A DNA stretch of 64,000 nt from Spirosoma sordidisoli (GTDB taxonomy: Bacteria; Bacteroidota; Bacteroidia; Cytophagales; Spirosomataceae), in contig NZ_SBLB01000003.1 in NCBI RefSeq assembly GCF_004138325.1, positions 434,001-498,000 of the forward strand. The letters run 5' to 3'. The notes beneath the pieces were generated by a model. That model was not told where the DNA came from. It was given only the letters and a program-made list of their open reading frames with translations, and made no database searches. Numbering within the stretch: the first letter of the stretch is position 1; every line of letters starts with the position of its first letter. The position numbers were made by a program, and so were the translations under genes. Below are positions 2,196 through 31,832 of the stretch, in pieces.

Positions 2196-2226
2196 TTGTC
2201 AACTTTTGTCAACTGTTGTATCTTTC
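2196..2226 (+). promoter_or_regulatory. Bacteroidota-type promoter of the terminase operon
   Basis: TTG at 2196-2198, exactly 20 nt, then TATCTTTC at 2219-2226, close to the Bacteroidota primary sigma consensus TTG-N20-TAnnTTTG. The ATG at 2247 follows 20 nt later. Both units of a GTCAAC repeat fall between the two boxes, so a bound repressor would exclude RNA polymerase. Confidence 0.5.
2198..2213 (+). promoter_or_regulatory. Phage direct-repeat operator, site 1
   Basis: GTCAAC-TTTT-GTCAAC, both units perfect, 10-bp period, on the coding strand of the downstream gene. Six bases after the stop codon of the GT9 gene and inside the promoter at 2196-2226. Confidence 0.75.
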
Positions 2227-2246
2227 GGGAGCCAACCATCACGACC

Positions 2247-2849
2247 ATGACCGACGTGCTCCCCCAGCCAGTACCCAAACCCGCTCTCGCCGACGACGAT
2301 CAGCGCGATGCGCTGACGTTTCTCTCCGAGCGGATCGCCTTTCTCGAACACCGGGAAAGTGAACTCTCCCAGCTACTGGCCTACCTGGCCGAAGAGGCCG
2401 GCAGTACCGTGCTGCTGCGGCTGCAGTTCCACAAAAGGCGGCAGCTGCTGCACGACATCGCCGTGGCGGAGTACCAGCTGGAAAGTGAATGGGTGCTTTA
2501 CTCGGCCAGCCGCGCCTGGCAGAAGGGCCATCCCAGGAAAGATCACGGCGTCAACACCCGCAGTCTGGGTAACGACAACGAGAAGGCAGCGCGGTACGTC
2601 ATCTGGTTTCTGCTGCTGCGCTACGACCAGTACGCCAGCCGGTCGGTGCTGGAAGAGGAGTACGGCATGGGCGGCAGCCAGAACACGGTGGCCCTGCTGA
2701 GCAAGCTGCTCACCAAAGAAGGCCAGAAAAGCCGGATGGCTACCGTGGAGCGCAAGTTCCTCGAAGCCATCGGCTGGATACAGCCCGGCCAGCGGTTCGT
2801 TGCCACCGAGCTACCCGCCCCCGGCGAACCCATCAACCCCTGGAAATAA
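2247..2849 (+). CDS. Probable terminase small subunit
   Basis: 200 residues from ATG 2247, chosen because the promoter lies directly upstream and the frame before it overlaps promoter sequence. It is helical and charged (an RIAFLEHRESELSQLLAYLAEE coiled-coil-like N-terminal part) with a compact C-terminal half that could hold a helix-turn-helix (KAARYVIWFLLLRYDQYASRSVLEEEYGM). Its stop overlaps the start of the large terminase by one base (TAATG). The small-terminase role, DNA recognition for packaging, rests on position only. Confidence 0.55.
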   Translation: MTDVLPQPVPKPALADDDQRDALTFLSERIAFLEHRESELSQLLAYLAEEAGSTVLLRLQFHKRRQLLHDIAVAEYQLESEWVLYSASRAWQKGHPRKDHGVNTRSLGNDNEKAARYVIWFLLLRYDQYASRSVLEEEYGMGGSQNTVALLSKLLTKEGQKSRMATVERKFLEAIGWIQPGQRFVATELPAPGEPINPWK

Positions 2850-4858
2850 TGAAGTCGCGTCGTCTCGAACGGGAAAAACAAAAGGCTGGCCTGCCCAGCA
2901 AATACGACAGGATACGCCCGGTCGAGCGCGACTACCTGACCCATCCTGACAGTGTGCAGGTCAAGTATCGGCCCGTCCTGCAGGCTCCCATTCCCGACCC
3001 GCCCGAGGAAGGTGAGGTAGGCACCGAGCGGGCGATCTGGTGGCAGACGCAGCTCTACCGCTGCAAATACGGATGGACCTACGAAGCCGAGGGCGAGACG
3101 CCGAAGTACTTCACCCCGGCCTACTACTTCTACCTCAACTTCGTCAAGGTTGAGATCAAGGACAAGAAGCGGGGCCGGAAGCGGATGGCACCCTTGTATT
3201 CGGACTCCGACCACCGCATCTTCAACTGGATATACAGCCTCGAAGCCCAGGCGTATTCGATGGCCAGAGACGGCATCGTCACCAAAGGGCGACGCAAACA
3301 CTGGTCCTACATCACCCACTGCGGGGTGTTTCTGCACGACTTCTGCTTCGATACGGCCAGCCACGTAGCGATTGGCTACGACAGCAAGATAAGCCGGGAA
3401 GAAGGGCAGCGCATTTTTCAGGGGGCGTACAACTCGCTGCCCAGCTATTTTAAGCACGACACCCTCTACACGGAAAAAGAGGGCGAGCTGTCGAATGGCG
3501 AAGCGGTCTACGACGCCGACGGTCAGTTGACGGGCTACGTGGAGCGTAACACCATTATCTTTCGGGAGCTGGATAAAAACCCCGGCGGCCTGCGGGGTAG
3601 AAACCTCAAGCGGGTACTCCTGGATGAGATCGGCAAGTACCGCAACGCGATGGCCTGCGTGATCGCTACCGAAGATGCGCTGCGCGAAGGCCTCGACAAG
3701 CACGGCTCCCTGCTGGCGGGTGGCACGTCGGATGCCATCAGTAACGAATCGAAAGATTATAAGACGCTCTGGAAACAGGCCGACGTGCGGGGCTGGGGTC
3801 GGCTGTTTGTCAGCGCGGGCTGGGTAGCCCCCCCCTACTTTGATTATTTTACGGGCGTCTCCGACATCAAGGCGGCCGAAGCCGAGTATCGGGCCGAGCG
3901 GGATGCGCTGCTCAACGTCGGCGACGTGATGGGCTACTATGGCAAAATGCAGGAGAACCCCCTCACGCCCGAGGAGTGCTTCAACCCGCCCGTGCGCAGC
4001 CGCTACCCAGCCCACATCATCCAGGAGCAGGTGTTCTTTCTGCGCCAGTGGCCCACCGAACACTGGATCATCCGGGGTAGGCTGGACTGGGTCAACGACG
4101 TACTGGGTAATCACATCCGGGTGGACTTCACCGAAGACCCCAATGGGTCGTGGCACTTTTACCGCGACGGCTTTCCCCGCCGTGACCTGCCCGGCCTGGA
4201 CATTCTCGGCGTCGATGACGTGTACCTGGACAAAGAGCGGGAAGAGGTGAGCGACGACGACTCGCTGCAGAGTATCGTCATCAAACGGCGCAAGGTGGAT
4301 AAGCAGTTTGAGAACGATCTGTTCGTGGCCTACTACGAAGACCGCCACGACCGGCACGTCTTCGCCCGCGAACTCCACAAAGCCCTCTGGTTCACCAACG
4401 GCAAAGCCATCATCGAAAACAACGACAAGTTTCTGCCCGACTTTCTGCAGCGCAACAACCTGCAGGATCAGGTGATCTGGGTAAACGGCAAGATGGGTAT
4501 CCGCAACGACGAGCGGACGATCCCCCACCAGCAGATGCTGGCCCAGGACTGGTTCGACGCGGGCGGTGCCAGCCGCTGCTACTTCGAGCGCATCCTGGAC
4601 AGCTTCAAAAACTTCCGGTCCACCAACGACGACGTGGCTTCGGCCGCTCACCTGGCCCTGCACGCCGAAGACATCATCAAGGACCACCCCATCCGCACGG
4701 AAGCCGACGCCAAAGGCTTCGGCCTCAAGATCGGCACGGGCTACTCGCCCCTGCTGGCCAGGATGACGGGTCTGCAGGACACCGGCCTGAACGGCGAATC
4801 GGGTTCCCGGCTCGACGGCATACGCCGGATGCGTGAGCAGATGCGCCGGGTGGCGTAG
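2849..4858 (+). CDS. Terminase large subunit (packaging ATPase/nuclease)
   Basis: 669 residues. A degenerate Walker A region (TKGRRKHWS, 145-153) precedes a clear Walker B (RVLLDE, D259-E260). The C-terminal RNase-H-like nuclease domain shows its three acidic positions: D456 in GVDDVY, E523 in IIENN and D594/D595 in STNDDV, with the usual strand pattern FVAYYEDRHDRHVFARELHKAL between the first two. The enzyme pumps phage DNA into the procapsid through the portal and cuts the concatemer. It starts on the TAATG of the preceding gene. Length is typical of large Bacteroidota phage terminases. Confidence 0.88.
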   Translation: MKSRRLEREKQKAGLPSKYDRIRPVERDYLTHPDSVQVKYRPVLQAPIPDPPEEGEVGTERAIWWQTQLYRCKYGWTYEAEGETPKYFTPAYYFYLNFVKVEIKDKKRGRKRMAPLYSDSDHRIFNWIYSLEAQAYSMARDGIVTKGRRKHWSYITHCGVFLHDFCFDTASHVAIGYDSKISREEGQRIFQGAYNSLPSYFKHDTLYTEKEGELSNGEAVYDADGQLTGYVERNTIIFRELDKNPGGLRGRNLKRVLLDEIGKYRNAMACVIATEDALREGLDKHGSLLAGGTSDAISNESKDYKTLWKQADVRGWGRLFVSAGWVAPPYFDYFTGVSDIKAAEAEYRAERDALLNVGDVMGYYGKMQENPLTPEECFNPPVRSRYPAHIIQEQVFFLRQWPTEHWIIRGRLDWVNDVLGNHIRVDFTEDPNGSWHFYRDGFPRRDLPGLDILGVDDVYLDKEREEVSDDDSLQSIVIKRRKVDKQFENDLFVAYYEDRHDRHVFARELHKALWFTNGKAIIENNDKFLPDFLQRNNLQDQVIWVNGKMGIRNDERTIPHQQMLAQDWFDAGGASRCYFERILDSFKNFRSTNDDVASAAHLALHAEDIIKDHPIRTEADAKGFGLKIGTGYSPLLARMTGLQDTGLNGESGSRLDGIRRMREQMRRVA

Positions 4859-4873
4859 TCAACCCTTGTCAAC
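4858..4873 (+). promoter_or_regulatory. Phage direct-repeat operator, site 2
   Basis: GTCAAC-CCTT-GTCAAC, perfect units, 10-bp period, beginning on the last base of the terminase stop codon (TAG). A further single GTCAAC stands at 4894-4899. Confidence 0.75.
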
Positions 4874-4920
4874 GCACATTTGACAGGGGGGCTGTCAACA
4901 TTCGCGGGGCGGGTGCCGAC

Positions 4921-4928
4921 TACTTTTG
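4921..4928 (+). promoter_or_regulatory. Candidate -7 element upstream of the scaffold gene
   Basis: TACTTTTG matches TAnnTTTG exactly. The following bases, GGGAGCCAAC, repeat those after the -7 element at 2219 (CGGGAGCCAAC), suggesting a shared transcript start and leader. No good TTG box is seen at the normal spacing. Confidence 0.4.
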
Positions 4929-4957
4929 GGAGCCAACAATCCCAAAACTGATTCGCC

Positions 4958-6004: not shown

Positions 6005-6070
6005 ACCAATGTGGCCTCGGGGCTACCGTGTGAGGGCTTTCTATCCACACCACTTTTTATCTAACAGAAT

Positions 6071-7597
6071 ATGGCAAAGATTATCAAGCAACAGTTCGGG
6101 GCCGGCACACTGGACCTGCCCTTCCTGGGACTGGCCCTCGCCCGGCAGCCGCAGATGCTGCAGGAGTTTATCGTCAGCCGGTTTGCTTCCAACAACCTGG
6201 CTCTGACGACGCTCTTCCAGGGTATCTATCCCGAGTCGCAGGGCGAAGAGGTGCTGGGTAGCAACCAGGTGAGCTGGGAGGTCTACAACCTACCCGAAAA
6301 GCCCATCTACATCGACGGCATCGTGGGTACACCGAAGGTTGGCAACGACATTGAGGTAGACCTGACCGAAGGCTGGCTCCGCGCCGGGGCCAAGCTGCGG
6401 CTCGAAGACGGCCGGACCCTGTTACACCTGCAGACCAACGGCTCTCCCCGCGCCAACGGTATCGTCCGCTACCGGGGTCGGATCGTGGGCAACAACACGG
6501 AACACGAAGCTCCGTCGTGGCTTTTCGAGCGCAACCGGGCGGCCAACTACCAGACGGCCAACTACGAGGAGGGCTCCCACATGGGCCACCCGATGTACTA
6601 CGGGACGGGCGACAAGTACAAGCAGGCGATGTCTACTCACCGCCACGACGCCGACCTGACGGGCGACGCCCTCTCGGAAGTAACGATCTTCGAGACGACC
6701 CGCGAGATACCAAACTCGGGTGGACGCACGAAAACCTACCGGGGCTGGCTGCCCGAGTTCCTGCGGAGCCCAACAACCTCGCTGCTCGACTTCCACCAGC
6801 GGCACTGTGAACTGGATCACATTTACGGTCAGAGCAACATCAACTTTGAGACGGGCGAGATTTTCAACATCAACGAAACCAACGGCTCGAAGAAGGTGAT
6901 GATGGGTGATGGGCTTATTGCTCAGCTCGACGGCGCGTACACCAAATGCTACGACCCGAAGGATTCGCTATCGTCTATCCGTAACAAGGTGAAGAATATC
7001 ATCACCTATATGTCGGCCCACTGGAACAACCAGGACTTCCTGGAAATGGTCGTGATGGGTGGCATCGGGGCGGACGCCGTCTTCCAGGACGTGATGGCCG
7101 AGTTACAGGCCAGCTCGGGCGTTCAGGTGTGGCGCACGCCAGACTCAGAAGGCAAAGTCGTTGTCGGCCTTCGCTTTTCGGAGTGGATCATTGGCGGCAT
7201 GGGCAAGATCAAGTTCGTGCGTAACAACAGCATGGGCGACATCACCGCCAAATCGCGCATGATCAACTACAACGGGGTTGCTCTCAACGCCGAGTCGTTC
7301 GATATGTACTTCATGCCGATTGGGATGATGTCGAACGGCAAGACCAACATCCGCTTCTTCTCGAAGGGTAAGACGGTCAACGGCCAGCAGATCAACCGTT
7401 CGCTGGTGTTCAGCCACATCCAGGGCGTGACCGGCTACCTGTCCAACAATCTGTCGAAAGCCTCGGCGGATGGGCTGTCGGAGTATGCTAACCTGGTGGG
7501 CACCTCGCGGGATGCCGAGCAGTTCCATCTGCTCAGCCAGAAGATGCTGATCGTTACCAACCCAACCGAGTTCGCCCGGTTGCTGGTGTACCGATAG
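6071..7597 (+). CDS. Major capsid protein
   Basis: 508 residues with no low complexity, placed after terminase and scaffold. The N-terminal segment (KQQFGAGTLDLPFLGLALARQPQMLQEFIVSRFASNNLALTTLFQGIYPES) and the later MVVMGGIGADAVFQDVMAEL region look like an HK97-fold capsid subunit of the kind seen in Bacteroidota podo- and siphophages. The start at ATG 6071 follows a 66-nt A/T-rich leader with no Shine-Dalgarno. The call is by size, order and general appearance, not by a diagnostic motif. Confidence 0.7.
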   Translation: MAKIIKQQFGAGTLDLPFLGLALARQPQMLQEFIVSRFASNNLALTTLFQGIYPESQGEEVLGSNQVSWEVYNLPEKPIYIDGIVGTPKVGNDIEVDLTEGWLRAGAKLRLEDGRTLLHLQTNGSPRANGIVRYRGRIVGNNTEHEAPSWLFERNRAANYQTANYEEGSHMGHPMYYGTGDKYKQAMSTHRHDADLTGDALSEVTIFETTREIPNSGGRTKTYRGWLPEFLRSPTTSLLDFHQRHCELDHIYGQSNINFETGEIFNINETNGSKKVMMGDGLIAQLDGAYTKCYDPKDSLSSIRNKVKNIITYMSAHWNNQDFLEMVVMGGIGADAVFQDVMAELQASSGVQVWRTPDSEGKVVVGLRFSEWIIGGMGKIKFVRNNSMGDITAKSRMINYNGVALNAESFDMYFMPIGMMSNGKTNIRFFSKGKTVNGQQINRSLVFSHIQGVTGYLSNNLSKASADGLSEYANLVGTSRDAEQFHLLSQKMLIVTNPTEFARLLVYR

Positions 7598-7622
7598 TCA
7601 ACTATAGTCAACGCAAGTTGAC
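7597..7622 (+). promoter_or_regulatory. Phage direct-repeat operator, site 3 (three units)
   Basis: GTCAAC-TATA-GTCAAC-GCAA-GTTGAC: three units at a strict 10-bp period, the third inverted. The array begins on the last base of the capsid stop codon and is followed by a terminator-like hairpin. Confidence 0.75.
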
Positions 7623-7631
7623 GACGCATAG

Positions 7632-7661
7632 CGGGGCCGATGCCGGCCAGTGTCGGCCCCG
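7632..7661 (+). terminator. Terminator-like hairpin after the capsid gene
   Basis: 9-bp GC-rich stem, CGGGGCCGA (7632-7640) with TCGGCCCCG (7653-7661), 12-nt loop, then TATTTAACC. Only a weak T-tract, so partial termination or mRNA protection is possible. Confidence 0.5.
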
Positions 7662-7690: not shown

Positions 7691-8680
7691 ATGCACGAAG
7701 TTCAGCTCAGACGAAAGAGTTTAAACCCCCAAATCAAACGGTTCGCCCCGTGCAGCCTGGGGGCGTTCATGGCTCCCGGCGAAGATGGCGTTGACCAGCG
7801 GTGGTACTACACCGACGGACGCCGGACAGCCACGGGCGAATTTGAGGAAGTAGACCTTGAAATCGGCGACGGTGGTGTCATCAAGATCGACATCGACCTG
7901 CCGCACCACGCCCACAACTTAGAGACACTGCAGAAGGCGCAGTCGATGATACCCTCGAAGCTGCCCCCCGGTGTGCAGATTGAGATTATCGACAGCCGGC
8001 TGCTGGCCGAAGATGGCATCAGCCATCACCTGCTCGTCGCTGAGCTATACGGCAAGGTCGAAGGATTGTCCACCGAGATGATGCAGAGCCTGGCCCGTGT
8101 GTTGGGATTTGGCCGGATGGAAGGACGGCTGGATACCGAGGTAAAATACTTCGTGCTGCGTAAGATCAAAGAAGACACCAAGCGGGTCCGCGATCTGCTG
8201 GACGCCGAAGATCAGGAGGTGCAGATCGAGGTCGCCAAAGGTCTTGAGGCCGGATTCATCATCCACCGCGACGGGCAGTACACCTACAACGACCAGTTTC
8301 TGGCGACGACGGAAGAAGCCATGCGGGCCAAACTCATGGGCGATGGTAGTCTGTTCACCGACCTCAAGCTGCGCAACGGCAGACACTTCGCCAGCACCAC
8401 CCCCCTGCGCCGGCAGGCACCACCCGTCGATACGGTTACCACGAGTGTCGGGGATGCCTCGAAGCTGGGCGGTGGGTCAACGGGCGTCAACGTCAACGAC
8501 CTATTCAAGCGGGGTAAAGATAAATCGCACATCTCCTACCAGCGTACCGCCGAGGGAGAGCGCAAGCAGGGCTACTACTTCGGACAGATGTTTCTGGGCA
8601 ACTCGGAAAGCACGGCCGTAGCGATGCTGTCGGAGAACGCACTGGTTGCTGAACTACTCGAAAAAGCCCTGGCAGCATGA
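7691..8680 (+). CDS. Phage structural or assembly protein, unknown
   Basis: 329 residues from ATG 7691; earlier in-frame codons run into the hairpin, so they are not used. Mixed alpha/beta composition with a Gly/Ser/Thr-rich stretch near residues 248-275 (TSVGDASKLGGGSTGVNVND). It lies between capsid and connector genes and overlaps the next gene by 4 nt, so it is probably a virion or head-assembly component. No family recognised. An operator repeat lies inside its coding sequence at 8476-8497. Confidence 0.6.
   Translation: MHEVQLRRKSLNPQIKRFAPCSLGAFMAPGEDGVDQRWYYTDGRRTATGEFEEVDLEIGDGGVIKIDIDLPHHAHNLETLQKAQSMIPSKLPPGVQIEIIDSRLLAEDGISHHLLVAELYGKVEGLSTEMMQSLARVLGFGRMEGRLDTEVKYFVLRKIKEDTKRVRDLLDAEDQEVQIEVAKGLEAGFIIHRDGQYTYNDQFLATTEEAMRAKLMGDGSLFTDLKLRNGRHFASTTPLRRQAPPVDTVTTSVGDASKLGGGSTGVNVNDLFKRGKDKSHISYQRTAEGERKQGYYFGQMFLGNSESTAVAMLSENALVAELLEKALAA
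8476..8497 (+). promoter_or_regulatory. Phage direct-repeat operator, site 4 (intragenic)
   Basis: GTCAAC-GGGC-GTCAAC followed at once by a third GTCAAC (8492-8497), in the coding strand of the 7691-8680 gene. Two perfect units at the 10-bp period, but the coding context (Val-Asn codons) could produce this by chance, so it is less certain than the intergenic sites. Confidence 0.45.
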
Positions 8681-10301: not shown

Positions 10302-10333
10302 ACCCTGGGCGTGGGTATCCCTGCGCCCAGGGT
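10302..10333 (+). terminator. Terminator-like hairpin 1 before the portal gene
   Basis: 10-bp stem ACCCTGGGCG (10302-10311) with CGCCCAGGGT (10324-10333), 12-nt loop, followed by TGGTTGG. No T-run; first of two hairpins in tandem. Confidence 0.4.
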
Positions 10334-10342
10334 TGGTTGGCC

Positions 10343-10390
10343 GATGCCGGACGGTAGCAGCGACGCTGCCTGCCGCCGGCATCTTTTTTT
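10343..10390 (+). terminator. Strong Rho-independent terminator before the portal gene
   Basis: Long nested stem: GATGCCGG (10343-10350) with CCGGCATC (10376-10383), continued by CGGTA/TGCCG and GCAG/CTGC, a 5-nt loop and a run of seven T immediately after. It lies only 15 nt before the portal ATG, so portal expression must come from read-through, anti-termination or a later start. Confidence 0.75.
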
Positions 10391-10404
10391 CTCCCCCCTT
10401 CGCC

Positions 10405-12825
10405 ATGCAGCCAAACCCATCGGTTATCACCCCCTACCAGAACCCCTACCAGACCGTCGCGTCGGACAAAGCCAATGACTTCGGTGACTACCCCCTGCTG
10501 GTGGTGCCCGAAGGAAAGCCCGGCTCGGCCGAGTACGAGCGAAAGCTGGACGCCCTCTTCAAGCGGCTCCACGACTGGCTCTCCTCGCGCTGGCTGTATC
10601 GCAACGACACCAACGGCACCGGCCCCTTTGCGCGGAACCCCCTCAAAAACTACAAGCGCGTCAACGGTACGCCCGACGAGGCCGACCACGCCGACATCCT
10701 GGCTCCCTTCGGACAGGCGGGCCTCTCGCAGCTACAGGCCGCCGACTTCTATTCGACCAACCTGGGGGTGCTGGCCGGTATCCTGGCCGAGTCGCCACTG
10801 CGCTACAGCGTGGACATCCTCAACCCCGAAGTCTCCGAGCGGGCACTGGATAAAGTAGCCCAGATGGGAGCCGAAGGCTTTCTGCGGGCCGCTGCCCAGC
10901 AGGCCAGCCAGGCGACCGGCACCGACCTGCAGCCGGGCCTGACCGACCCGTCGATCTTCGTGCCCGATAACGAAGACGAAGTCATGGCCCCCCTGACGGA
11001 GAAGGAAGAGATCGCGTCGGTGACCTACGACATGCTCAAGGCCGCCAGCGAGGAGACGCGGCTCGAACGCATCCTGGCCAACTGCTTCGATGATCTCGGC
11101 GTGGTCAACGCCGAGATGATGGAGATACGCATTGAGAACGGCAAGCTCCGGGTGGACCGGCTGACGGGCAACGAAGTCGCCTGGCTGGGACCGGCCGAGA
11201 TTGAGAAGGCGGACCAGGCCGACGGCTGGGGTATCTTCCGGATGCTGCCGGCGACCCAGTGCGTGGCCCAGTACGGCGGCTACATGGAAGAGGTAGACAC
11301 GCTCAAGGCGTTTAAGAGCTGGCTGGAAAACGGCATGAAGGATCAGCCGGCTGCGGTAGCCGGGCCCAAAGCCCAGACGAGCTGGTCGCTGCGAAACGCC
11401 CTGCCCTACGTGAGCAATGGCGACACGCCGGCCCTGCTCGAAAGCCGTATCTACGTTAAGCTGGTGCGCTTTCTCAAGTTCGCCCTGACCCTGGACGGGT
11501 TGGAGCTCAGCGACGAGCAGGTCAAAAAGTTCAGAAAGCGGCAGCTTGACGAGGCCGAGCGGGTACTCTATACCCGGCTGACCGACGAAGAGGCCGAGGT
11601 GCAGAAGGCGCAGGGGCGGGCGATCCACACCATTCCCATCGTCGAACTGTGGGAGTCGGTGCGGCTGGGCGGTGAGCACCTGATCTACCGACGCCCCGCG
11701 CCGGGGCAGATCAGACGGCAGGGGGAGCGGGCCAATGTGAAGTATCCCATCATCGCCCACTTCCAGCCGGGCCAGAGTCTGGTCACCAAAGGTGTTCCGC
11801 TCTACGAGCTGCACACCAACATTATGACCAAGCTCCGCAAGCTCGTCGCCCTGTCGGGCATGAAGACACTGGTGATCGACGCCAGCGAGGTGCCGGAAGG
11901 GTCAAGCGTGGACCAGATGCTCATCGAAGCCAACGAGATCGGGGTGCTGGTGATCAACAGCCAGCGCACGTCAGGGGCTCCCACGAAGGAAAGCTACAAG
12001 CACATGACCACCGTTGATCTGAGTCTGAACGACAACGTGGTTCACCTGCTCAACCTGGCCGCCACGCTGCGGGATATGTACGACAACATGACTGGGGTGA
12101 CGCCGGCCATGAAAGGACTCTTCGCCAACCGCGAGGCACTGGGCCAGACGCAGATGGCCAAGCTGCAGGGTACGCTGATTTCGCAGCGGCACTTTGCGGC
12201 TCATTCCGAGTTTGTGCGGGAAGGCCTTGAGGTGATGGTCAACCTAGGCAAGTATGTCTGGGCGGGGCAGGGTCGCAAGCGCATCCTGCTGGGCGAGGGG
12301 GGTGTGAAGACCTTGCGGCTGGCCGAGGAGATAAACAGCTACGACTACGGCATCTACCTGTCGGATTCGATGAAGGCCGCCAGGGATAAGGAGTTTTTGA
12401 TGAACGTCGCCCAGCAGGGCATGTCGAGCGGTCAGGTCGGCCTGAGAGAGATCATCTCCATGTACTACGCGGATAACCCCTACAAGGTACTCAGCATCGT
12501 CAGAGACGGGCTATCGGCTTACGAGCGGATGGAAGGGCAGATCAAGCAGATGCAGGCGGAGAACCAGCAGGCGATGGCCGAAGCGGCAAAGGCCAGGGCG
12601 CAGGCTCCGATAGAGGTGGCCAACATCACCGGGCAGTGGAAGCTGGAAGTGGAAAAGCTCAAACAGGAGTTCGAGGCAATGCGTCAGGAAGGCAAGCTGC
12701 AGCACGACGCCGACAAGTTCGACGTGGGCAACCAGGTAGCCGTCAAGCGCGACGCCATGCGCCTGACGGCCCAGGAAGAGATGGCTAATCCGCAGCCGGA
12801 GGTGGTGCCAGTGGACGCCCGCTAA
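10405..12825 (+). CDS. Portal protein
   Basis: 806 residues from ATG 10405. The central part shows a portal-like pattern: a long alpha/beta body, a predicted wing and stem region, and DNMTGVTPAMKGLFANREALGQTQMAKLQGTLISQRHFAAHSEF near residues 570-615, as in podovirus-like portals. The C-terminus (about 700-790) is a long Gln/Glu/Lys helix typical of a portal barrel. The dodecameric portal is the DNA entry channel and the dock for terminase. It is the last rightward gene, and its final 41 nt overlap the convergent gene at 12785. Confidence 0.7.
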   Translation: MQPNPSVITPYQNPYQTVASDKANDFGDYPLLVVPEGKPGSAEYERKLDALFKRLHDWLSSRWLYRNDTNGTGPFARNPLKNYKRVNGTPDEADHADILAPFGQAGLSQLQAADFYSTNLGVLAGILAESPLRYSVDILNPEVSERALDKVAQMGAEGFLRAAAQQASQATGTDLQPGLTDPSIFVPDNEDEVMAPLTEKEEIASVTYDMLKAASEETRLERILANCFDDLGVVNAEMMEIRIENGKLRVDRLTGNEVAWLGPAEIEKADQADGWGIFRMLPATQCVAQYGGYMEEVDTLKAFKSWLENGMKDQPAAVAGPKAQTSWSLRNALPYVSNGDTPALLESRIYVKLVRFLKFALTLDGLELSDEQVKKFRKRQLDEAERVLYTRLTDEEAEVQKAQGRAIHTIPIVELWESVRLGGEHLIYRRPAPGQIRRQGERANVKYPIIAHFQPGQSLVTKGVPLYELHTNIMTKLRKLVALSGMKTLVIDASEVPEGSSVDQMLIEANEIGVLVINSQRTSGAPTKESYKHMTTVDLSLNDNVVHLLNLAATLRDMYDNMTGVTPAMKGLFANREALGQTQMAKLQGTLISQRHFAAHSEFVREGLEVMVNLGKYVWAGQGRKRILLGEGGVKTLRLAEEINSYDYGIYLSDSMKAARDKEFLMNVAQQGMSSGQVGLREIISMYYADNPYKVLSIVRDGLSAYERMEGQIKQMQAENQQAMAEAAKARAQAPIEVANITGQWKLEVEKLKQEFEAMRQEGKLQHDADKFDVGNQVAVKRDAMRLTAQEEMANPQPEVVPVDAR

Positions 12826-14077: not shown

Positions 14078-14093
14078 GTTGATTACAGTTGAC
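14078..14093 (-). promoter_or_regulatory. Phage direct-repeat operator, site 5
   Basis: Minus strand GTCAAC-TGTA-ATCAAC, 10-bp period, between the stop codon of the lipoprotein gene and its terminator. Confidence 0.65.
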
Positions 14094-14095
14094 GA

Positions 14096-14791
14096 TTAAT
14101 ACCAACCGCCCGGCGGTGTGCCTGGTTCAAAGTAGGCAACCATGATGCTGTTCGTTGGCCCGTTTTCGTGTACCCAGTACATTGTCGGCTGATTGTTGGG
14201 GCCATAAAAAATATAGACCGTAATACCGTACAACCCACAGGCCGGATCATGGTTGTTGTTGGTCCGGTAGGTGAGGTTCGGAGAGCCGGGGATGGTGTTA
14301 TAGATATGGCTGATGGGGCTTTGCTGACTGGGCAGTACCATGCGCCGAAGTCCGGAGTCGCCACACACCGGGTCAATATAGCTCCCCGGCTCAGAGCACA
14401 ACGTCATGTGCGAAATGTAGTACCGGCCGTCTACGGGCGGCTGGATGCTCAAATAGACAAAGTCGAACATGCAGCTTAACGGAAACATCGACTTATACTG
14501 GGCCTTGTTTTTGGCGTATCCGGGGGTGTAGATATATTCCTCGGTAGCATACCAATCAACAAACCGCCAGCTGCCAACGATTTCGGCAGGGAGTTCCTGG
14601 GCGGGACGGGCCGACTTGTTGGTAGTTGTCTTGGCACTAAGGTCAACCTTCACGGCGCGACCATCGGCGACGGCCTGCAACAGTTCCGACTTAGTTTTAG
14701 GTCGCTTGTAATCGGGCTTAGACTTGGGTTCGTTGGCTTTTTCGCAGGAGAAAGCAAACAGGAGAGCGAGAATAAGAATGAGTTGTTTCAC
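14096..14791 (-). CDS. Phage-encoded lipoprotein
   Basis: 231 residues from GTG 14791, which places a lipoprotein signal at the N-terminus: KQLILILALLFAFSC with a lipobox Cys near residue 16. The mature part is soluble, with several Cys (MFPLSCMF, LCSEPG, PVCGDS, DPACGLYG) and many Tyr/Pro, and should sit on the periplasmic side or in the outer membrane. It has its own upstream operator, a promoter region and a terminator, so it forms a single-gene unit (a moron). Such proteins commonly change the lysogen surface or block superinfection; that role is inferred. No family recognised. Confidence 0.7.
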   Translation of the reverse strand: MKQLILILALLFAFSCEKANEPKSKPDYKRPKTKSELLQAVADGRAVKVDLSAKTTTNKSARPAQELPAEIVGSWRFVDWYATEEYIYTPGYAKNKAQYKSMFPLSCMFDFVYLSIQPPVDGRYYISHMTLCSEPGSYIDPVCGDSGLRRMVLPSQQSPISHIYNTIPGSPNLTYRTNNNHDPACGLYGITVYIFYGPNNQPTMYWVHENGPTNSIMVAYFEPGTPPGGWY

Positions 14792-14832: not shown

Positions 14833-14848
14833 CTTGACAAAAGTTGAT
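14833..14848 (-). promoter_or_regulatory. Phage direct-repeat operator, site 6
   Basis: Minus strand ATCAAC-TTTT-GTCAAG, 10-bp period, 42 nt upstream of the lipoprotein GTG start. Confidence 0.65.
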
Positions 14849-15982: not shown

Positions 15983-15998
15983 GTTGATTTAAGTTGAC
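15983..15998 (-). promoter_or_regulatory. Phage direct-repeat operator, site 7
   Basis: Minus strand GTCAAC-TTAA-ATCAAC, 10-bp period, covering the 3' end and stop of the gene at 15989 and ending 9 nt before the ATG at 15973. Confidence 0.65.
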
Positions 15999-16963: not shown

Positions 16964-16979
16964 GTTTACAAAGGTTGAC
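16964..16979 (-). promoter_or_regulatory. Phage direct-repeat operator, site 8
   Basis: Minus strand GTCAAC-CTTT-GTAAAC, 10-bp period, in the 56-nt gap between genes at 17001 and 16944. Confidence 0.6.
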
Positions 16980-20757: not shown

Positions 20758-21760
20758 AGCTGCCAAAGTCGATGCGGTGCGAATAGCTGGGCTGGCTGGC
20801 TTTTACCAGCTCAACCTGCTTGTCGGTCGCGTAGAGGTTGAAGAATCGAAAGACCTGTGATCGGTCTTTGAAGGTGTTGTTGATCGCGCGTTCGTTGACG
20901 AAGCAGTCCACAAAGTCGGTGAATGGGGCTTTAAACTTTTTGAAAAACAGGTCGGCTTTCTCGCCCCGAAACAGGATTGCCAGTAGTTTGTAAAGCTGCT
21001 CTCTGGTACAGGGGAGTCCGCTGATCCGGCACCACTCCCCTTCGGCTACCGCAAACGGATCGGTTGCTATGGCTTCCCGGTGCTGACTAACAAACGCCGG
21101 CACGTCGCCGGGTTGATAGTGAGATTGACTTGGGTTGACAAGAGCAGCAGCAGCAGCAGCAGACGGACTAACCTGCGGGTATGTCTCCATCTTATTATCT
21201 ACCTCTTGTACTACTACTCTTTTTTTTCTTTTTATACTTTTTATATTCCTTATATATGCGGGTAAACAATTTGTTAAGGGTTCCATAACATTTAGATTAC
21301 CCCCCTTAACATTTAGATTAGGGTTTACCCTTAACATTTTGTTATTACCCCCCTTAACAAATTGTTTAGGGGGGGGTAATCTATTTGTTAAGGGTAGTCC
21401 ACTTCCCGTCATGGTAGAAACGGCATTTGCCGGCGAGGCTGCGACAGACATCTGCAGGGGTTCGGGTTGCTGATCGTCCGCATAAAACAGAACTGCTATG
21501 GACGGCTCCACCTCAATGTGGCGGGCGTTATCGGGCTGGTTAATACTGATCAGGCCGTACTCTTTGAGGTCGTTAATGATTCGACTAATGGAGCTACTGT
21601 GTACGACGCCGGTTTGCTGGGCCAGCATCGCATTTGTGTCACAACATACCCCGCCATTACCAGCGGCCCGGTACGCAATCTGCGAGAGGACAACGCGCTC
21701 AGTCATACTCAGTGCATCGTTGGTTAAAATCTCCTGTGGAATGAATAAGCCCTTGTTCAT
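20744..21760 (-). CDS. Phage replication initiator with N-terminal winged helix
   Basis: 338 residues. Residues about 15-85 form a winged helix-turn-helix (LSMTERVVLSQIAYRAAGNGGVCCDTNAMLAQQTGVVHSSSISRIINDLKEYGLI), like lambda O and related initiators. Residues about 115-200 are low-complexity and are encoded by the iteron array at 21264-21394 and an A/T-rich stretch. A short Ala run follows. The C-terminal domain (about 230-338) is helical and probably contacts the helicase or loader. Inferred role: binds the origin inside its own gene and recruits DnaB, encoded just downstream. Confidence 0.75.
   Translation of the reverse strand: MNKGLFIPQEILTNDALSMTERVVLSQIAYRAAGNGGVCCDTNAMLAQQTGVVHSSSISRIINDLKEYGLISINQPDNARHIEVEPSIAVLFYADDQQPEPLQMSVAASPANAVSTMTGSGLPLTNRLPPPKQFVKGGNNKMLRVNPNLNVKGGNLNVMEPLTNCLPAYIRNIKSIKRKKRVVVQEVDNKMETYPQVSPSAAAAAALVNPSQSHYQPGDVPAFVSQHREAIATDPFAVAEGEWCRISGLPCTREQLYKLLAILFRGEKADLFFKKFKAPFTDFVDCFVNERAINNTFKDRSQVFRFFNLYATDKQVELVKASQPSYSHRIDFGSYEYK
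21124..21139 (-). promoter_or_regulatory. Phage direct-repeat operator, site 9 (intragenic, near origin)
   Basis: Minus strand GTCAAC-CCAA-GTCAAT, 10-bp period, inside the initiator gene next to the A/T-rich part of the putative origin. Confidence 0.5.
21181..21394. other. Putative phage replication origin (iterons plus A/T-rich tract)
   Basis: Six copies of a CCCTTAACAnnTnnnTTA-like element in 130 bp. Direct orientation: 21286-21299 (degenerate), 21303-21320, 21328-21347, 21351-21368. Reverse: 21264-21280 and 21377-21394. They adjoin an 80-bp pyrimidine/A-T-rich tract (about 21181-21260) that would melt easily. All lies inside the initiator gene, the layout of lambda ori within gene O. Confidence 0.7.
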
Positions 21761-21772: not shown

Positions 21773-22063
21773 TTAAAGGATGGTGATGCGCAGCTTGTTG
21801 TGAGGCAGCTTGCTGTAGGCGATGTGAGACGCTTTCGTCAGGTAGTCCAGGGTAAGGGTCATCTCGTCGGCAGATCGCAAGCCAGCGACAACTCGTAGCT
21901 CCATGCTGTCCACATCAAAGGTGGAGCCCACCTCGCGGATGACGAAGTACAACAGGGCCGAGTACGTCGCCATGTGCAGCGAGGTGGCATCCGGTCTTCC
22001 AGCGTTGGCAATGACGAACCGGCTCAGCTTATCCGGAAGGTTGACTTTAGTTGACGTAGCCAT
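21773..22063 (-). CDS. Hypothetical phage protein
   Basis: 96 residues, overlapping the upstream gene by 40 nt. The operator repeat at 22040-22055 lies in its first codons. It looks like a small folded alpha/beta protein (DATSLHMATYSALLYFVIREVG). No family recognised. Confidence 0.55.
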   Translation of the reverse strand: MATSTKVNLPDKLSRFVIANAGRPDATSLHMATYSALLYFVIREVGSTFDVDSMELRVVAGLRSADEMTLTLDYLTKASHIAYSKLPHNKLRITIL

Positions 22064-22470: not shown

Positions 22471-22803
22471 TTAAAAAGGTGTCTCTTCTCCCTCTTCGGG
22501 TATGTATGTCTCGACGGCATCTCTTCCGTCCGGCATCTTGACACTGACATACGTGCGAATCTTTTCCTGATACGCATCGCCGATCACTTCGGAAGCCACC
22601 TCGAATAAGTCCATGACATCAAGGGCGTGGCTGGCCGCGTTCGGCATGATTTCTTGTTGCTTACTTTTCTGATAGTACCGATCCAGTTGACCGTCAACAT
22701 ACTCTTCCAGTATTTTCAACTCAACCAGCGAGAGTTCCTTTAACTGGCTCGGGTCAATAAAAAGTTGCAGGGGATTTTTTGATTTCTCAGCGGTAGCCAT
22801 CAT
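22471..22803 (-). CDS. Hypothetical phage protein
   Basis: 110 residues; ATG 22803 overlaps the stop of the Rha-type gene. Acidic and helical, ending in EEGEETPF, reminiscent of acidic C-terminal tails that dock on partners, but no family recognised. Confidence 0.6.
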   Translation of the reverse strand: MMATAEKSKNPLQLFIDPSQLKELSLVELKILEEYVDGQLDRYYQKSKQQEIMPNAASHALDVMDLFEVASEVIGDAYQEKIRTYVSVKMPDGRDAVETYIPEEGEETPF

Positions 22804-23561
22804 CGTGCTTGTTTAAGTTGTGGTACTGGCTTTGGAGCCTCGGTGATGCCCAGCTCCTGCATCTTCTGAAACAGTGGCAGAGCGTGGGTCTTACAGATGA
22901 TTGAGGCCTCGTCAATGCCGATCCGGCCAGTCTTACAGAAGTCGTCGGCGAGAGCCATTGAGGAGGCCACAGCTGGCTTGAATGTACGGATGACTTCTTT
23001 GGCCGAGGTGCGGTGCTTGGACGGTACGCCTTTTGTTTTGGCCCAGTGGAGTATTTCGTGCGGGGTCTTGCCGGTGTGGTGGAAACAGTTGGCCCGGTTG
23101 TAGGCGATAGCCTGATCCTTTCCACCCTGCGAGAAGTTGTAGCTGTTCACTTCTTTGCTGTTGGCGATCTGCTTGGGTCGCTGGGTAAAGACCAACAGCT
23201 GCTTTACCTCTGGGCTTTCTGATACCTGGCTTCGCTCCTCTTCGAGTTGTTGCCAACGCTGGATGATCTTGTGCCGGGCCACTACGTCGTAACCCGACAG
23301 AAGGGTTATTGTCGTGTTCTTGTCCAGCCAATACAAGGGTAGTTGCTTTCCCTGTTCGCTAACATAAAACCCTGATTCACAATGAAAGCTCAAAGTTGAG
23401 CCGTCCGCTGCTGCTGCCTTTAGCTGACGCAGCATGGTTCTAATGTCTCGGATAACGTTCTTGTGAATCTTTCCGGTTAGCTCGGCTATTTCCAAGCTGT
23501 TCATTGTGCGAACCGGGCCAGTAGATGACTGGCCTGCTGGTTGTGGTGCTGTGGACTTCAT
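22800..23561 (-). CDS. Rha-family phage regulatory protein
   Basis: 253 residues from ATG 23561. Residues about 19-110 carry the Phage_pRha pattern: MNSLEIAELTGKIHKNVIRDIRTMLRQL, then a FYVSEQGKQLPLYWLDKNTTITLLSGYDVVARHKIIQRWQQLEEE block. A second helical domain (about 140-250) is of KilA-C/antirepressor appearance. Rha-type proteins act as regulators or antirepressors in the lysis-lysogeny switch. The gene has a long structured leader with the three-way-junction hairpin 15 nt before the ATG and two operator repeats further up, so it is likely heavily regulated. Confidence 0.82.
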   Translation of the reverse strand: MKSTAPQPAGQSSTGPVRTMNSLEIAELTGKIHKNVIRDIRTMLRQLKAAAADGSTLSFHCESGFYVSEQGKQLPLYWLDKNTTITLLSGYDVVARHKIIQRWQQLEEERSQVSESPEVKQLLVFTQRPKQIANSKEVNSYNFSQGGKDQAIAYNRANCFHHTGKTPHEILHWAKTKGVPSKHRTSAKEVIRTFKPAVASSMALADDFCKTGRIGIDEASIICKTHALPLFQKMQELGITEAPKPVPQLKQAR

Positions 23562-23576
23562 CGTGTTGATAAATAA

Positions 23577-23663
23577 AAGAGGTAACCCCTCCAATGGTAT
23601 GTTGCGTTGGCGACGCAAGACGGGACAGCGACCGTCTACATACCATTGGAGGGGTTACCTCTT
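23577..23663 (-). ncRNA. Perfect three-way-junction hairpin in the rha leader
   Basis: Outer stem of 26 perfect base pairs (23577-23602 with 23638-23663). Its interior is filled exactly by two hairpins with no unpaired junction bases: 23603-23617 (5-bp stem TGCGT/ACGCA, 5-nt loop) and 23618-23637 (6-bp stem AGACGG/CCGTCT, 8-nt loop). On the minus (transcribed) strand the outer stem runs into CTCTTTTATTT, so it can also act as a terminator or attenuator. It could be a leader RNA switch, a small stable RNA, a DNA cruciform or the palindromic remains of a small mobile element. Confidence 0.7.
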
Positions 23664-23719: not shown

Positions 23720-23735
23720 GTTGATAAAAGTTGAC
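23720..23735 (-). promoter_or_regulatory. Phage direct-repeat operator, site 11
   Basis: Minus strand GTCAAC-TTTT-ATCAAC, 10-bp period, about 57 nt upstream of the three-way-junction element. Confidence 0.65.
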
Positions 23736-23862: not shown

Positions 23863-23878
23863 GTTGACAAAAGTTTAC
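23863..23878 (-). promoter_or_regulatory. Phage direct-repeat operator, site 12, with possible leftward promoter
   Basis: Minus strand GTAAAC-TTTT-GTCAAC, 10-bp period, just after the stop of the gene at 23882. Eleven bases on, TATCTTTTC (complement of 23843-23851) resembles the -7 box at 2219; spacing to a TTTG box is short (16 nt). Confidence 0.6.
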
Positions 23879-28019: not shown

Positions 28020-28021
28020 GA

Positions 28022-28558
28022 TCAGGGGGTTTGTGGTTGAGAAACTTGCTCGTTGATAGCGGCCAGCAACGCGAAGACGGCGGCCATCTCTGGGTTGCGG
28101 AAGGCGTGGTTGAGGTAATCGCGGGGGTTGTCGTAGTGGTAGTGGTTGGCTTTGATGTGGGCTTTACACCCAGCCTCAGTGAAGAAGGCGTTCTGATACT
28201 TGTGCTTGATTGAATACGAATCCCGCAGACAACCCACCTTTTCCAGCCACTCTTCACTGTCGGATTCGTACACCGACCATCCAGTTCTCAAGTCTTTATA
28301 CCAGTCGGGCCGCTTGACGCCATTCTCTTTGGCCAGCTTAGCCACTGTCTTATGGTCGAAAGGGCCAACTTCCGTATGATCATCAAGGCTTACGATCACC
28401 TGATGGTCGCCGTTCAGGTTGGGCACCCAAACCTTTTCGTCGGTCTGTATCTGGAACAGATAGGGCGTGGCTGTGCCCCTGTTGCTCTGCGTGGCGACCG
28501 CCTGGGCGATCTCTTTGAGCGTGTCGAACAACTCATCACTTACCTGTATCGTTTTCAT
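28022..28558 (-). CDS. Hypothetical phage protein
   Basis: 178 residues from ATG 28558; an operator repeat ends 4 nt before it. N-terminal KTIQVSDELFDTLKEIAQAVATQSNRGTATPYLFQIQTDEKVWVP looks like a compact alpha/beta unit; later Cys/His residues (VGCLRDSYSIKHKYQNAFFTEAGCKAHIKANHYHY) could bind metal. No family recognised. Confidence 0.6.
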   Translation of the reverse strand: MKTIQVSDELFDTLKEIAQAVATQSNRGTATPYLFQIQTDEKVWVPNLNGDHQVIVSLDDHTEVGPFDHKTVAKLAKENGVKRPDWYKDLRTGWSVYESDSEEWLEKVGCLRDSYSIKHKYQNAFFTEAGCKAHIKANHYHYDNPRDYLNHAFRNPEMAAVFALLAAINEQVSQPQTP

Positions 28559-28562
28559 AGTA

Positions 28563-28578
28563 GTTGATATAGGTTGAC
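28563..28578 (-). promoter_or_regulatory. Phage direct-repeat operator, site 13
   Basis: Minus strand GTCAAC-CTAT-ATCAAC, 10-bp period, touching the stop codon of the gene ending at 28578 and 4 nt before the next ATG. Confidence 0.65.
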
Positions 28579-29192
28579 TACATCTCAATAAGATCGCCGA
28601 TACTTCTGGGCTCCCCGTACTGCTGGGTCAGCCGCTGCAGGTACGCCACGTAGTAGTCGGCGTCGATCTGCTCGTCGTCCAGCCACCGGCTACCCAGACT
28701 AAGCAGCCGCTGCATCTGCAGACTACAGCGCAGCAGGTCACCGTGCAGGGGCGCATCATCCTGATCCAGCCAGTTGGATACCGCTGCCGTGTAGTTATGT
28801 TGGGCCACCTGAATCATGGCGCACAGCCGGCGGGTGCGCTCCATCCAGACTCGGTACGCTTTCTGCTGACAATCAATGAAGTGGATCGTGAAGCCCAACT
28901 GATCGCAGGTGTTGACCTTGCCGGCGTCACCCATCAGCAGCAGACAGCAGATGCCATCGGGATGGGTCAGGTGGATCAGGGCGTTCATGCAGTCGATAGC
29001 CGTCATGGACGCATCCATGTAGCGGGGCGTGTCGGCGAAGTCTACGATAGCCGTCAGGAGTGGGTCGTCGGCCATATGCAGATCACCGTAGAGGGTTTCG
29101 GTCTGCTGCCACAGGGCTGTGGCCAGGGCGTAGGCAGGGGCAGGCCAGGCAGACGGGCTTCCGTAAGAGAGGGTTGCCAAAAGTTGACGCAT
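28578..29192 (-). CDS. Hypothetical phage protein
   Basis: 204 residues, largely helical, Cys- and Met-containing. Its first codons hold an operator repeat (29173-29188). Leader CTTTAAACATTCC precedes ATG. No family recognised. Confidence 0.6.
   Translation of the reverse strand: MRQLLATLSYGSPSAWPAPAYALATALWQQTETLYGDLHMADDPLLTAIVDFADTPRYMDASMTAIDCMNALIHLTHPDGICCLLLMGDAGKVNTCDQLGFTIHFIDCQQKAYRVWMERTRRLCAMIQVAQHNYTAAVSNWLDQDDAPLHGDLLRCSLQMQRLLSLGSRWLDDEQIDADYYVAYLQRLTQQYGEPRSIGDLIEM
29173..29188 (-). promoter_or_regulatory. Phage direct-repeat operator, site 14
   Basis: Minus strand GTCAAC-TTTT-GGCAAC, 10-bp period, in codons 2-7 of the gene starting at 29192. Confidence 0.6.
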
Positions 29193-29204
29193 GGAAAGGA
29201 ATGT

Positions 29205-30260
29205 TTAAAGGGTTAATACTCTAGGTTTAATTGCGTGATCAATCGGGCCCAGGGTTTTCAGTATCCGGGCGTCGGCCATGTCTACATAGGCCTGCTTGAG
29301 ATCGAAGCCAATGTAATTTCGCTTGGTCAGCCGGGCGGCAATCGCCGTGCTGCCGCTTCCCATAAAGGGGTCTACCACTACACCGCCCGCAGGACATCCC
29401 GCCATAATACAGGGCTTGATCAATTCTACCGGGAAGACAGCGAAGTGAGCATCAGCAAATCCTTTCGTGGATACAGACCACACCGAACGCCTGTTGCGTT
29501 TTTCATAGGCAACATCAGATATTTTAAGCAGACCCGATTTTGTTCTGTGTTCTTCCGTATCTAATTGCTCATGGACAGAGACATACTTGTGACTCTTATT
29601 GCCAGAGGCTCGGGGCTTGACACTGGCCCGGCCCAGTTGATGGATGCCTGTTTTACCCGTGTGAAACACAGAGCCGTTCGCCCCTACCACCGCCGGCTCT
29701 TTGATAGCTTCATGGTCGAAGTAATACTTAGCTGACTTTGACAGCAGGAAGATGTACTCATGGGCTTTCGTGCAACGGTCGGTCACCGACTCAGGCATCG
29801 GGTTCTTTTTGTGCCACACAATATCCTGTCTGACCCACCACCCGTCATCCTGCAGGGCTATCGCCAGCCGGTGTGGAATCATCATCAGGTCTTTTGGTTT
29901 GAGTCCGGTGTATCGTTTATTGCGTCCGATGGGAGAGTCATGTAGAGCTTTGGCATGTTTCCCTCCTGTGTGTCCACCCCACTTGCCATCGTTGGCATAG
30001 GAGTCGCCGATGTTTATCCAGCACGTCCCTGTCTTCTTGAGTACGCGCCGGGCTTCCCGGAATACATCAACCATCCGGGCGATATACTGGGCCGGCGACT
30101 CTTCAAGGCCGATCTCCATGTGCTTATCGGGGTCGTCATCATCCAAGTACGAGCGCAGTCCGAAGTAGGGTGGCGAGGTGACGATGCAGTCAACGCTATT
30201 GTCTGGCAGCATAGCGAACCCAGCCTTTGCATCTACTTTATGAATAATATTTATCTGCAT
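29205..30260 (-). CDS. Beta-class DNA methyltransferase (N4-C or N6-A)
   Basis: 351 residues. Catalytic motif IV TSPPY (28-32) comes first and the AdoMet-binding motif I DPFMGSGST (297-305) near the C-terminus, the order of beta-class amino-methyltransferases. TSPPY occurs in N4-cytosine and in some N6-adenine enzymes, so the base is open. No restriction endonuclease gene is beside it, so it probably protects phage DNA or regulates, and is not half of a restriction system. Start overlaps the upstream stop by TAATG. Confidence 0.92.
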   Translation of the reverse strand: MQINIIHKVDAKAGFAMLPDNSVDCIVTSPPYFGLRSYLDDDDPDKHMEIGLEESPAQYIARMVDVFREARRVLKKTGTCWINIGDSYANDGKWGGHTGGKHAKALHDSPIGRNKRYTGLKPKDLMMIPHRLAIALQDDGWWVRQDIVWHKKNPMPESVTDRCTKAHEYIFLLSKSAKYYFDHEAIKEPAVVGANGSVFHTGKTGIHQLGRASVKPRASGNKSHKYVSVHEQLDTEEHRTKSGLLKISDVAYEKRNRRSVWSVSTKGFADAHFAVFPVELIKPCIMAGCPAGGVVVDPFMGSGSTAIAARLTKRNYIGFDLKQAYVDMADARILKTLGPIDHAIKPRVLTL

Positions 30261-30871: not shown

Positions 30872-30878
30872 TGTGCGG

Positions 30879-30894
30879 GTTGATTTAAGTTGAC
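30879..30894 (-). promoter_or_regulatory. Phage direct-repeat operator, site 15
   Basis: Minus strand GTCAAC-TTAA-ATCAAC, 10-bp period, filling the gap between the stop at 30897 and the ATG at 30871. Confidence 0.65.
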
Positions 30895-30896
30895 GA

Positions 30897-31458: not shown

Positions 31459-31469
31459 AGAGTACAGGA

Positions 31470-31742
31470 TTATAGGTTGACAGAAGTTGACTGCGGACTT
31501 ATTTTTTTTAGCCGTGAGAGTCTAAGCGAAACCTCGTTGGCTTCTACTGTCTCTAATAGGAGAAGACCGTCATATATTTTTTTAACGGTGTCGTCTTTCG
31601 CCGGCTCACCATTTAAGGTGCGATGGATGGTTTTTCTGGTGACTTTTCCCAGCCGGGACACGCCAGTAATACCCCGTCTGGTCTTGCCCAGACGCACCTT
31701 GAGCCGGTCAATCTCCTCGGCGGGTAGGGGGATGCCTTTCAT
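31470..31742 (-). CDS. Cro-like small regulator
   Basis: 90 residues with a helix-turn-helix (TGVSRLGKVTRKTIHRTLNGEPAKDDTVKKIYDGLLLLE, about 26-64). First gene of the leftward early block, divergent from the repressor across a 107-nt control region. By position it is the Cro counterpart; an operator repeat is encoded in its last codons (31476-31491). Confidence 0.7.
   Translation of the reverse strand: MKGIPLPAEEIDRLKVRLGKTRRGITGVSRLGKVTRKTIHRTLNGEPAKDDTVKKIYDGLLLLETVEANEVSLRLSRLKKISPQSTSVNL
31476..31491 (-). promoter_or_regulatory. Phage direct-repeat operator, site 16
   Basis: Minus strand GTCAAC-TTCT-GTCAAC, perfect units, 10-bp period; ends 17 nt before the ATG at 31458 and overlaps the 3' end of the Cro-like gene. 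Confidence 0.7.
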
Positions 31743-31790
31743 ATATTCTGGATTGGTGTTTACTTTGCCGCTTACTCAAACGGATACTCA

Positions 31791-31814
31791 AATGTAACAT
31801 TTAATTATTACATT
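31791..31814. promoter_or_regulatory. Inverted-repeat operator in the switch region
   Basis: AATGTAA (31791-31797) and TTACATT (31808-31814), a perfect 7-bp dyad with a 10-nt spacer, in the A/T-rich gap between the divergent cro-like and repressor genes. Distinct from the GTCAAC repeat; a likely site for Cro-like or repressor dimers. Confidence 0.55.
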
Positions 31815-31816
31815 GT

Positions 31817-31832
31817 GTCAACTGCTGTCAAC
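31817..31832 (+). promoter_or_regulatory. Phage direct-repeat operator, site 17
   Basis: GTCAAC-TGCT-GTCAAC, perfect units, 10-bp period, 17 nt before the repressor ATG and on its coding strand; suggests autoregulation. Confidence 0.7.

Follow-up and report, generated by a model that had tools for sequence, protein, structure and literature searches.

What is the function of the direct repeat GTCAAC-N4-GTCAAC that recurs along a 64,000-nt stretch of the Spirosoma sordidisoli genome (contig NZ_SBLB01000003.1, here C21, positions 434,001–498,000; hereafter the window, in which a coordinate equals the C21 coordinate minus 434000)? A first-pass annotation had listed 17 copies in the phage half of the window and proposed a silencing system with the logic of the stoperators of phage L5. 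We interpret the repeats, with a probability of about 0.7, as the operator/stoperator regulon of a phage-specific repressor of a crAss-related prophage, most likely the protein with tandem predicted helix-turn-helix (HTH) domains encoded at 31850–32413. Stoperators are known in detail from actinobacteriophages; among the literature titles on stoperators, on crAss-like phage regulation and lysogeny, and on direct-repeat phage repressors, none describes such a system in a Bacteroidota phage.

All 17 listed copies were found at their positions and on their strands (Table 1). A search of both strands of the window allowing one mismatch per unit returned 20 matches, namely these 17 plus three others on the plus strand (30536, 43823 and 59487), each with both units changed. 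The form GTCAACNNNNRTCAAC had 12 exact matches in the window against a mean of 0.01 in shuffled sequences, and none of 100 shuffles reached 12. The proposed 10-bp spacing is the only favoured period in the prophage: allowing at most one mismatch, 24 pairs occur at period 10 versus 0–6 at each of 34 other periods (6 to 40). The same threshold gave 45 matches in the whole genome, 24 in the prophage and 21 in the other ~7.29 Mb, that is, ~0.30 per kb versus 0.003 per kb, a ~100-fold lower density outside; a reversed control pattern had 32 matches genome-wide. The earlier scan by eye, which had seen no pair in the host half of the window, agrees with our finding of no match there with at most one mismatch in all. 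The period control, the shuffles and the ~100-fold lower density elsewhere in the genome together exclude chance. Moreover, a blind search for sense-strand words at gene junctions, to which the motif was not supplied, returned the GTCAAC pair in the prophage (best-word score 62).

The prophage starts 48 kb left of the window, which holds only its right part, and we therefore fetched 59 kb further left. It measures 80,463 bp from the integrase gene (C21:385951-387207) to the end of the repressor gene (C21:466413), and an IMG/VR record of the same length contains the repressor. The consensus of the sites is GTCAAC-YWWW-RTCAAC. With a refined matrix, trained on its own hits and applied at a threshold of at least 14 bits, we counted 32 sites in the prophage versus 0.07 in a non-coding Markov null, 17 of them in the window and 15 left of it. 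The 17 repeats described as spanning the phage thus all exist, but form too small a set. Three sites (window 8476, C21:429933 and window 21124) are weak and fall within genes according to at least one of the two gene calls; the first of them is doubtful because of its position within a coding sequence, its GC-rich spacer and its score, the lowest of the 32 (14.6).

The sites concentrate at gene junctions. Genes were called with a simple codon-usage script, and their starts are approximate. At least half of the length is non-coding in 25 of the 32 sites, a property of 8.7% of positions (P 6e-21). All sites located in or between same-strand genes are in sense orientation (25/25, none opposite), and seven more have mixed-strand neighbours; an earlier 31-site matrix had given 23 non-coding sites, with 26 sense, 0 opposite and 5 mixed. 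Of 31 sites, six start with the final base of a stop codon and 12 are located 3–19 nt ahead of a called start. Orientation is clearly non-random, and the claim that every site lies on the transcribed strand is correct for sites in or between same-strand genes. It fails for three sites in divergent regions, which oppose the promoter that they overlap (31817 is the sole one in the window). This strict orientation suggests that the polymerase must meet the bound protein from one side.

The muzzle protein of this prophage (1,227 aa, C21:404637-408320) matches Pfam crAss_MUZ at 2.7e-209, which shows kinship with crAss-like phages. Among 222 genomes of the family, terminase searches detected relatives in 5 others, as well as a second crAss-related prophage in the same genome, and a muzzle profile detected relatives in 7 others. 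Genes of the second prophage are partly near-identical to those of the first (84.6% over 579 aa, 88.6% over 132 aa), which suggests, from sequence comparison, exchange between the two. In IMG/VR, terminase, portal and RepL-like queries retrieved only the prophage studied here, a muzzle alignment retrieved it and one record with the same genome number, presumably the second prophage, and the terminase of a relative in genome G194 had no match. With G194 the prophage shares orthologous terminase (38%), head protein (44%), muzzle (39%) and portal (38%).

The repeat itself is absent from the tested relatives: none of eight fetched regions holds more than a single match with one mismatch. Across the order, GTCAACYWWWRTCAAC was matched in 24 of 390 genomes, with more than two matches only in the S. 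sordidisoli genome, and among 83 viral-contig stretches with exact GTCAACYTTTGTCAAC, the maximum was two matrix sites, reached by six stretches including this prophage. Of the three conditions that the first-pass annotation named as refuting, equal frequency in host DNA and random orientation did not occur, and the outcome for related phages is mixed: they lack this repeat, but G194 has a different oriented repeat, CTAATCAATTTTATTAATCA, at many of the same junctions. Its 30 sites are mainly non-coding in 29 cases, with same orientation in 23, opposite in 1 and mixed in 6. The sites of the two phages often coincide: among ortholog flanks, 10 have a site in both, 5 only in our prophage, 1 only in G194 and 24 in neither (one-sided Fisher P 3e-5), and flanks with gaps of at least 12 bp in both phages give 10, 2, 1 and 10 (P 5e-4), two junctions being counted from both sides so that not all rows are independent. 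Places shared by the two phages include the region ahead of the late operon, the 3' sides of the terminase and head-protein genes and the junction leading into the gene in TerS position. These counts replace a hand-made list of 21 late junctions (5 shared, P 0.0055), which relied on a site dropped by the later matrix.

The second prophage has yet another motif, AAAACCTTATTAAAACC, with 34 rows, 31 of them non-coding, and same orientation in 28, opposite in 2 and mixed in 4; merging one-base shifts leaves 28 unique sites of a 17-base matrix (null mean 1.2, largest 5). Best-word scores in the blind search were 58 for G194 and 24 for the second prophage, with 61 for mycobacteriophage D29 as positive control. 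Because crude scores near 24 were reached elsewhere, by terminator-like words in G110 (23), a DAC15 word (22) and G214 (23, with antisense copies), the motif of the second prophage is based on its 17-base matrix. Two other candidates were set aside: the strong repeat signal of G193 did not differ between the strands, and GTCATT-N4-GTCATT in G110 consisted of one local tandem array and two scattered single matches. That array (C2:4116344-4116453, L183) has 10-bp steps on both strands, head to head, and falls outside the pattern analysed here.

Some sites coincide with predicted promoters. Bacteroidota promoters have a -33 TTTG and a -7 TANNTTTG element, the latter refined to TAHHTTTG in Flavobacterium, a genus with a less evident -33 element (PMC6847099). 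The pattern TTG-N17-23-TANNTTTG occurs five times in the prophage, and three of these five predictions overlap a site: ahead of the early genes, at the head of the late operon and ahead of a gene with a weak resemblance to RepL (Pfam 0.0033, below cut-off). All three sites are opposed to the promoter that they overlap. For TAHHTTTG elements before genes, overlap with the phage's own motif was seen in 3 of 7 cases in this prophage, in the single case of G194 and in 4 of 8 cases of the second prophage (one involving a weak site); pooled, this makes 8 of 16 (P 0.001 versus matched positions), 6 of the 8 being opposed. In G194, the first promoter (32865-32894, plus strand) of the operon carrying the RepL-like ortholog (36%) is likewise overlapped by G194's motif in opposed orientation.

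Promoter overlap and junction placement together fit a repressor that acts on both initiation and elongation. At the three host-type promoters (early genes, late operon head, RepL-like operon), the site covers part of the region from -33 to -7, where bound repressor would block initiation as at an operator, whereas elsewhere, where the sites occupy short gaps separating co-transcribed genes, it would stop leaked polymerase as at a stoperator. The site 17 nt ahead of the repressor start might allow autoregulation, and lytic growth would require that the repressor be lost or captured, perhaps by the Rha/anti-repressor type protein of the early block. Since the two prophages share host polymerase and ribosomes but differ in motif, the reader of the motif is probably phage-encoded. 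The 187-aa protein, our preferred candidate, matches HTH_3 at 126–180 (1.5e-19, two stretches), and its two HTHs may read the two units. In the family it has relatives in one other genome of 222 (G193:C1:264548-265084, about 31–32% identity), with both HTH regions kept and no evident phage genes around it in the gene calls; a phylum sample of 395 genomes contained none other. Matches in viral contigs comprised nine loci, one being the prophage itself and the others covering chiefly the second HTH, and the three in genome contigs were all partial. A phage collection gave no match for the repressor, the terminase or window 1-24000.

Several results weigh against this interpretation. The N-terminal part of the 187-aa protein alone matches HTH_31 (44–97, 1.2e-5) and HTH_3 (47–101, 0.013) just under the curated Pfam cut-offs, and the predicted recognition regions of the two HTHs differ, yet the two repeat units are nearly identical. 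The candidate regulator of the second prophage has one weak HTH only (Pfam 0.014), and none was found in G194, whose contig ends inside or near the prophage. The 3 of 7 TAHHTTTG overlaps, against a 20% background, are not strong taken alone. Site-bearing flanks do not agree beyond chance with those of the second prophage (3, 8, 4 and 31; P 0.21), and a convincing junction motif was not found in G188, G087, G110 and G213, the relatives tested after leaving out G214 (contig end) and G171 (small pieces).

The binder might also be another protein, such as the 137-aa XRE protein of the late block, which would leave the regulon reading unchanged. Its HTH is clear (Pfam 5.4e-10), and a site with three units in 10-bp steps lies next to it in a divergent gap, midway through the late block (C21:422155-422180; L011 8155-8180). 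We nevertheless regard this as unlikely, given that the 187-aa protein occupies the usual place of a repressor, divergent from the early genes, has a site in its leader and offers two HTHs for two units.

The main rival of the transcriptional mechanism, with some probability for the sites just before start codons, is control at the RNA level, in which an RNA-binding protein of the phage would bind the repeat in mRNA leaders and block or adjust translation. The sense orientation of every same-strand site and the proximity of many sites to called starts are compatible with it, and the motif of the second prophage often ends at ATG. However, three sites overlap promoters of the other strand, the site C21:394781 has no close downstream called gene on its own strand (642 nt), others are far from the next start (358 nt for 23863, 215 nt for 23720), and the one helical turn between units favours DNA. 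We regard this explanation as unlikely.

The repeats could instead be promoters of a phage-encoded RNA polymerase or sigma factor, by analogy with the virion polymerase of crAss-like phages. Sense orientation, location before genes and a different motif in each phage would suit such promoters, as would the muzzle kinship: the genes after the muzzle resemble crAss001 gp45–gp47 in order and size, and in crAss001 a comparable arrangement is followed by annotated polymerase genes. CrAss_Ring_2 matches weakly (0.019), and the muzzle has 33 distant partial matches in the phage collection, nearly all in Bacteroides phages. Nevertheless, neither of the two large DAC17 proteins in polymerase position had a match at E ≤1 when compared with the proteins called in the three prophages, a part of the second (1,557 aa) being used. 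One of them contains DFDID, which we take to be the polymerase motif; no conserved DxDxD was found in the largest protein. A sigma-factor search covered part of the small proteins, and sites 0–9 nt ahead of a start would yield almost leaderless mRNAs. We accordingly judge phage-specific promoters very unlikely and, as a virion RNA polymerase was not found, call the phage crAss-related only. With crAss001, DAC15 and DAC17 it shares the muzzle protein and a similar gene order after it, but it differs from them in having integrase, repressor and anti-repressor type genes; crAss001 (14) and DAC15 gave only weak words in the blind search. Several crAss-like families are regarded as lytic and incapable of lysogeny, and Epsilon crAss-like phages with repressor and anti-repressor genes have been described (PMC11054128).

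Host signals (ribosome-binding context, host promoters, terminators or a host-genome repeat) or chance are scarcely credible: Bacteroidota lack Shine-Dalgarno sequences and their A-rich leaders (PMC6847099) could shape AT-rich junction words such as the motif of the second prophage, but two prophages of one genome have different motifs, the density falls ~100-fold outside the prophage, and a blind search of 30 kb of neighbouring chromosome found no word with at least 4 copies.

How does the proposed repressor regulon compare with known systems? In cluster A mycobacteriophages, the genome carries 20–30 asymmetric sites, most of them in short gaps between genes and pointing one way relative to transcription, with some at promoters; motifs differ between related phages, and the repressor, roughly 183 aa long, contains two DNA-binding domains and binds as a monomer (PMC9283540, PMC6550527). 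The number of sites (32 in 80.5 kb), their short-gap placement and their single orientation resemble those of L5, TipsytheTRex and D29; sites in lytic promoters have their counterpart in three of the five predicted promoters here, though opposed. D29 showed the same pattern in the same blind search, its own stoperator motif being recovered. By contrast, the site is a 6-mer direct repeat with a 10-bp period instead of the 13-bp GGTGGMTGTCAAG of L5 type, and the sense strand, CTTGACA at the junctions of D29, is GTCAAC at those of our prophage and GTTGAC at its overlapped promoters. The repressor has two predicted XRE-type HTHs, the first below cut-off, and the phage group differs from cluster A; among the 27 PDB sequences listed at E ≤1 for the 187-aa protein, none is named as a solved L5-type repressor. 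Judged by its site sequence, the system is not L5-type. In L5-type systems elongation is blocked in a repressor-dependent way that reversal of the site abolishes. The comparison with L5 made at first holds as an analogy (junction sites, operators at promoters, a repressor with two predicted DNA-binding domains) and departs from the L5 layout in that promoter sites oppose the junction orientation. Phage P1 C1 has 22 asymmetric operators over the genome, one controlling RepL (PMC8546580), and here too a weakly RepL-like gene follows a site-overlapped promoter; nonetheless, the 17-bp, non-repeated C1 operator differs on sight from our repeat, and strict orientation with transcription is not claimed in the accessible part of that source.

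More tentatively, and with somewhat less than even confidence, we propose that integrating crAss-related phages keep lysogeny by oriented genome-wide transcription roadblocks whose origin is independent of the mycobacteriophage system. The direct-repeat address would be specific to each phage (periods 10, 11 and 13), allowing two such prophages to reside in one chromosome without mutual silencing; in the present phage, a single two-HTH chain would read both units. If true, this would be a second, unrelated system of the same logic, making silencing by many oriented roadblocks a recurrent solution, and would provide a lysogeny mechanism for relatives of crAss-like phages. The reason for the orientation rule could then be examined with a polymerase of different promoter usage, and specificity can be tested directly on the two prophages, which carry different motifs within one genome.

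Table 1 Repeat sites of the window and other features of the prophage (window coordinates unless a contig is given).
Feature	Position	Strand	Matrix score (bits)
Site GTCAACTTTTGTCAAC, 5 nt past a stop, ahead of TerS-position gene	2198..2213	+	27.6
Site starting on last base of terminase stop codon; junction also has G194's motif	4858..4873	+	22.6
Site starting on last base of head-protein stop codon; junction also has G194's motif	7597..7612	+	25.8
Doubtful intragenic site	8476..8491	+	14.6
Site 2 nt past a stop	14078..14093	-	24.1
Site at called start, one base changed in each unit	14833..14848	-	21.1
Site spanning gene end, 9 nt ahead of next start	15983..15998	-	26.9
Junction site	16964..16979	-	22.8
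Weak site, intragenic in one gene call, not in another	21124..21139	-	19.0
Site in last codons of called gene	22040..22055	-	26.0
Junction site, long gap	23720..23735	-	27.4
Site 3 nt past a stop	23863..23878	-	23.4
Site between stop and next start, 4 nt ahead of start	28563..28578	-	26.1
Site in first codons of called gene (true start may be further on)	29173..29188	-	23.4
Site between stop and next start, 7 nt ahead of start	30879..30894	-	26.9
Site over end of first early gene, 17 nt ahead of next start	31476..31491	-	24.6
Site 17 nt ahead of repressor start, overlapping -33 element of divergent early promoter	31817..31832	+	22.1
Predicted sigma-A type promoter of early genes, TTG-N22-TACATTTG	31789-31821	-	
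Predicted promoter at head of late operon, site-overlapped	C21:398688-398718		
Predicted promoter ahead of weakly RepL-like gene, site-overlapped	C21:394788-394818		
Putative repressor, 187 aa, two predicted HTH domains (about 44-101, 122-180)	31850..32413	+	
XRE protein, 137 aa	C21:421416-421829		
Terminase large subunit	2849..4858	+	
Major head protein	6071..7597	+	
Portal protein	10333..12825	+	
Rha/anti-repressor type protein, early block	22800..23618	-	
First early gene, 90 aa, in Cro position	31470..31742	-	
Probable right attachment (att) core, 15-bp repeat at 3' end of tRNA-Ser(GGA)	32504..32518 (C21:466504)		
Other copy of 15-bp att repeat, left of window	C21:385815		
Second crAss-related prophage, same genome (loci L056-L061, L168)	G000:C1 about 86-182 kb		

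The product of the first early gene had no family match in Pfam and is HTH-like by eye alone. The early block also encodes a DNA methyltransferase (29205-30260) and, within the same segment (28022-30260), a protein with a weak SRA match (28022-28588). By eye, terminator-like hairpins seem to lie 3' of the sites at 14078 (window 14094-14150) and 7597 (window 7613-7660).

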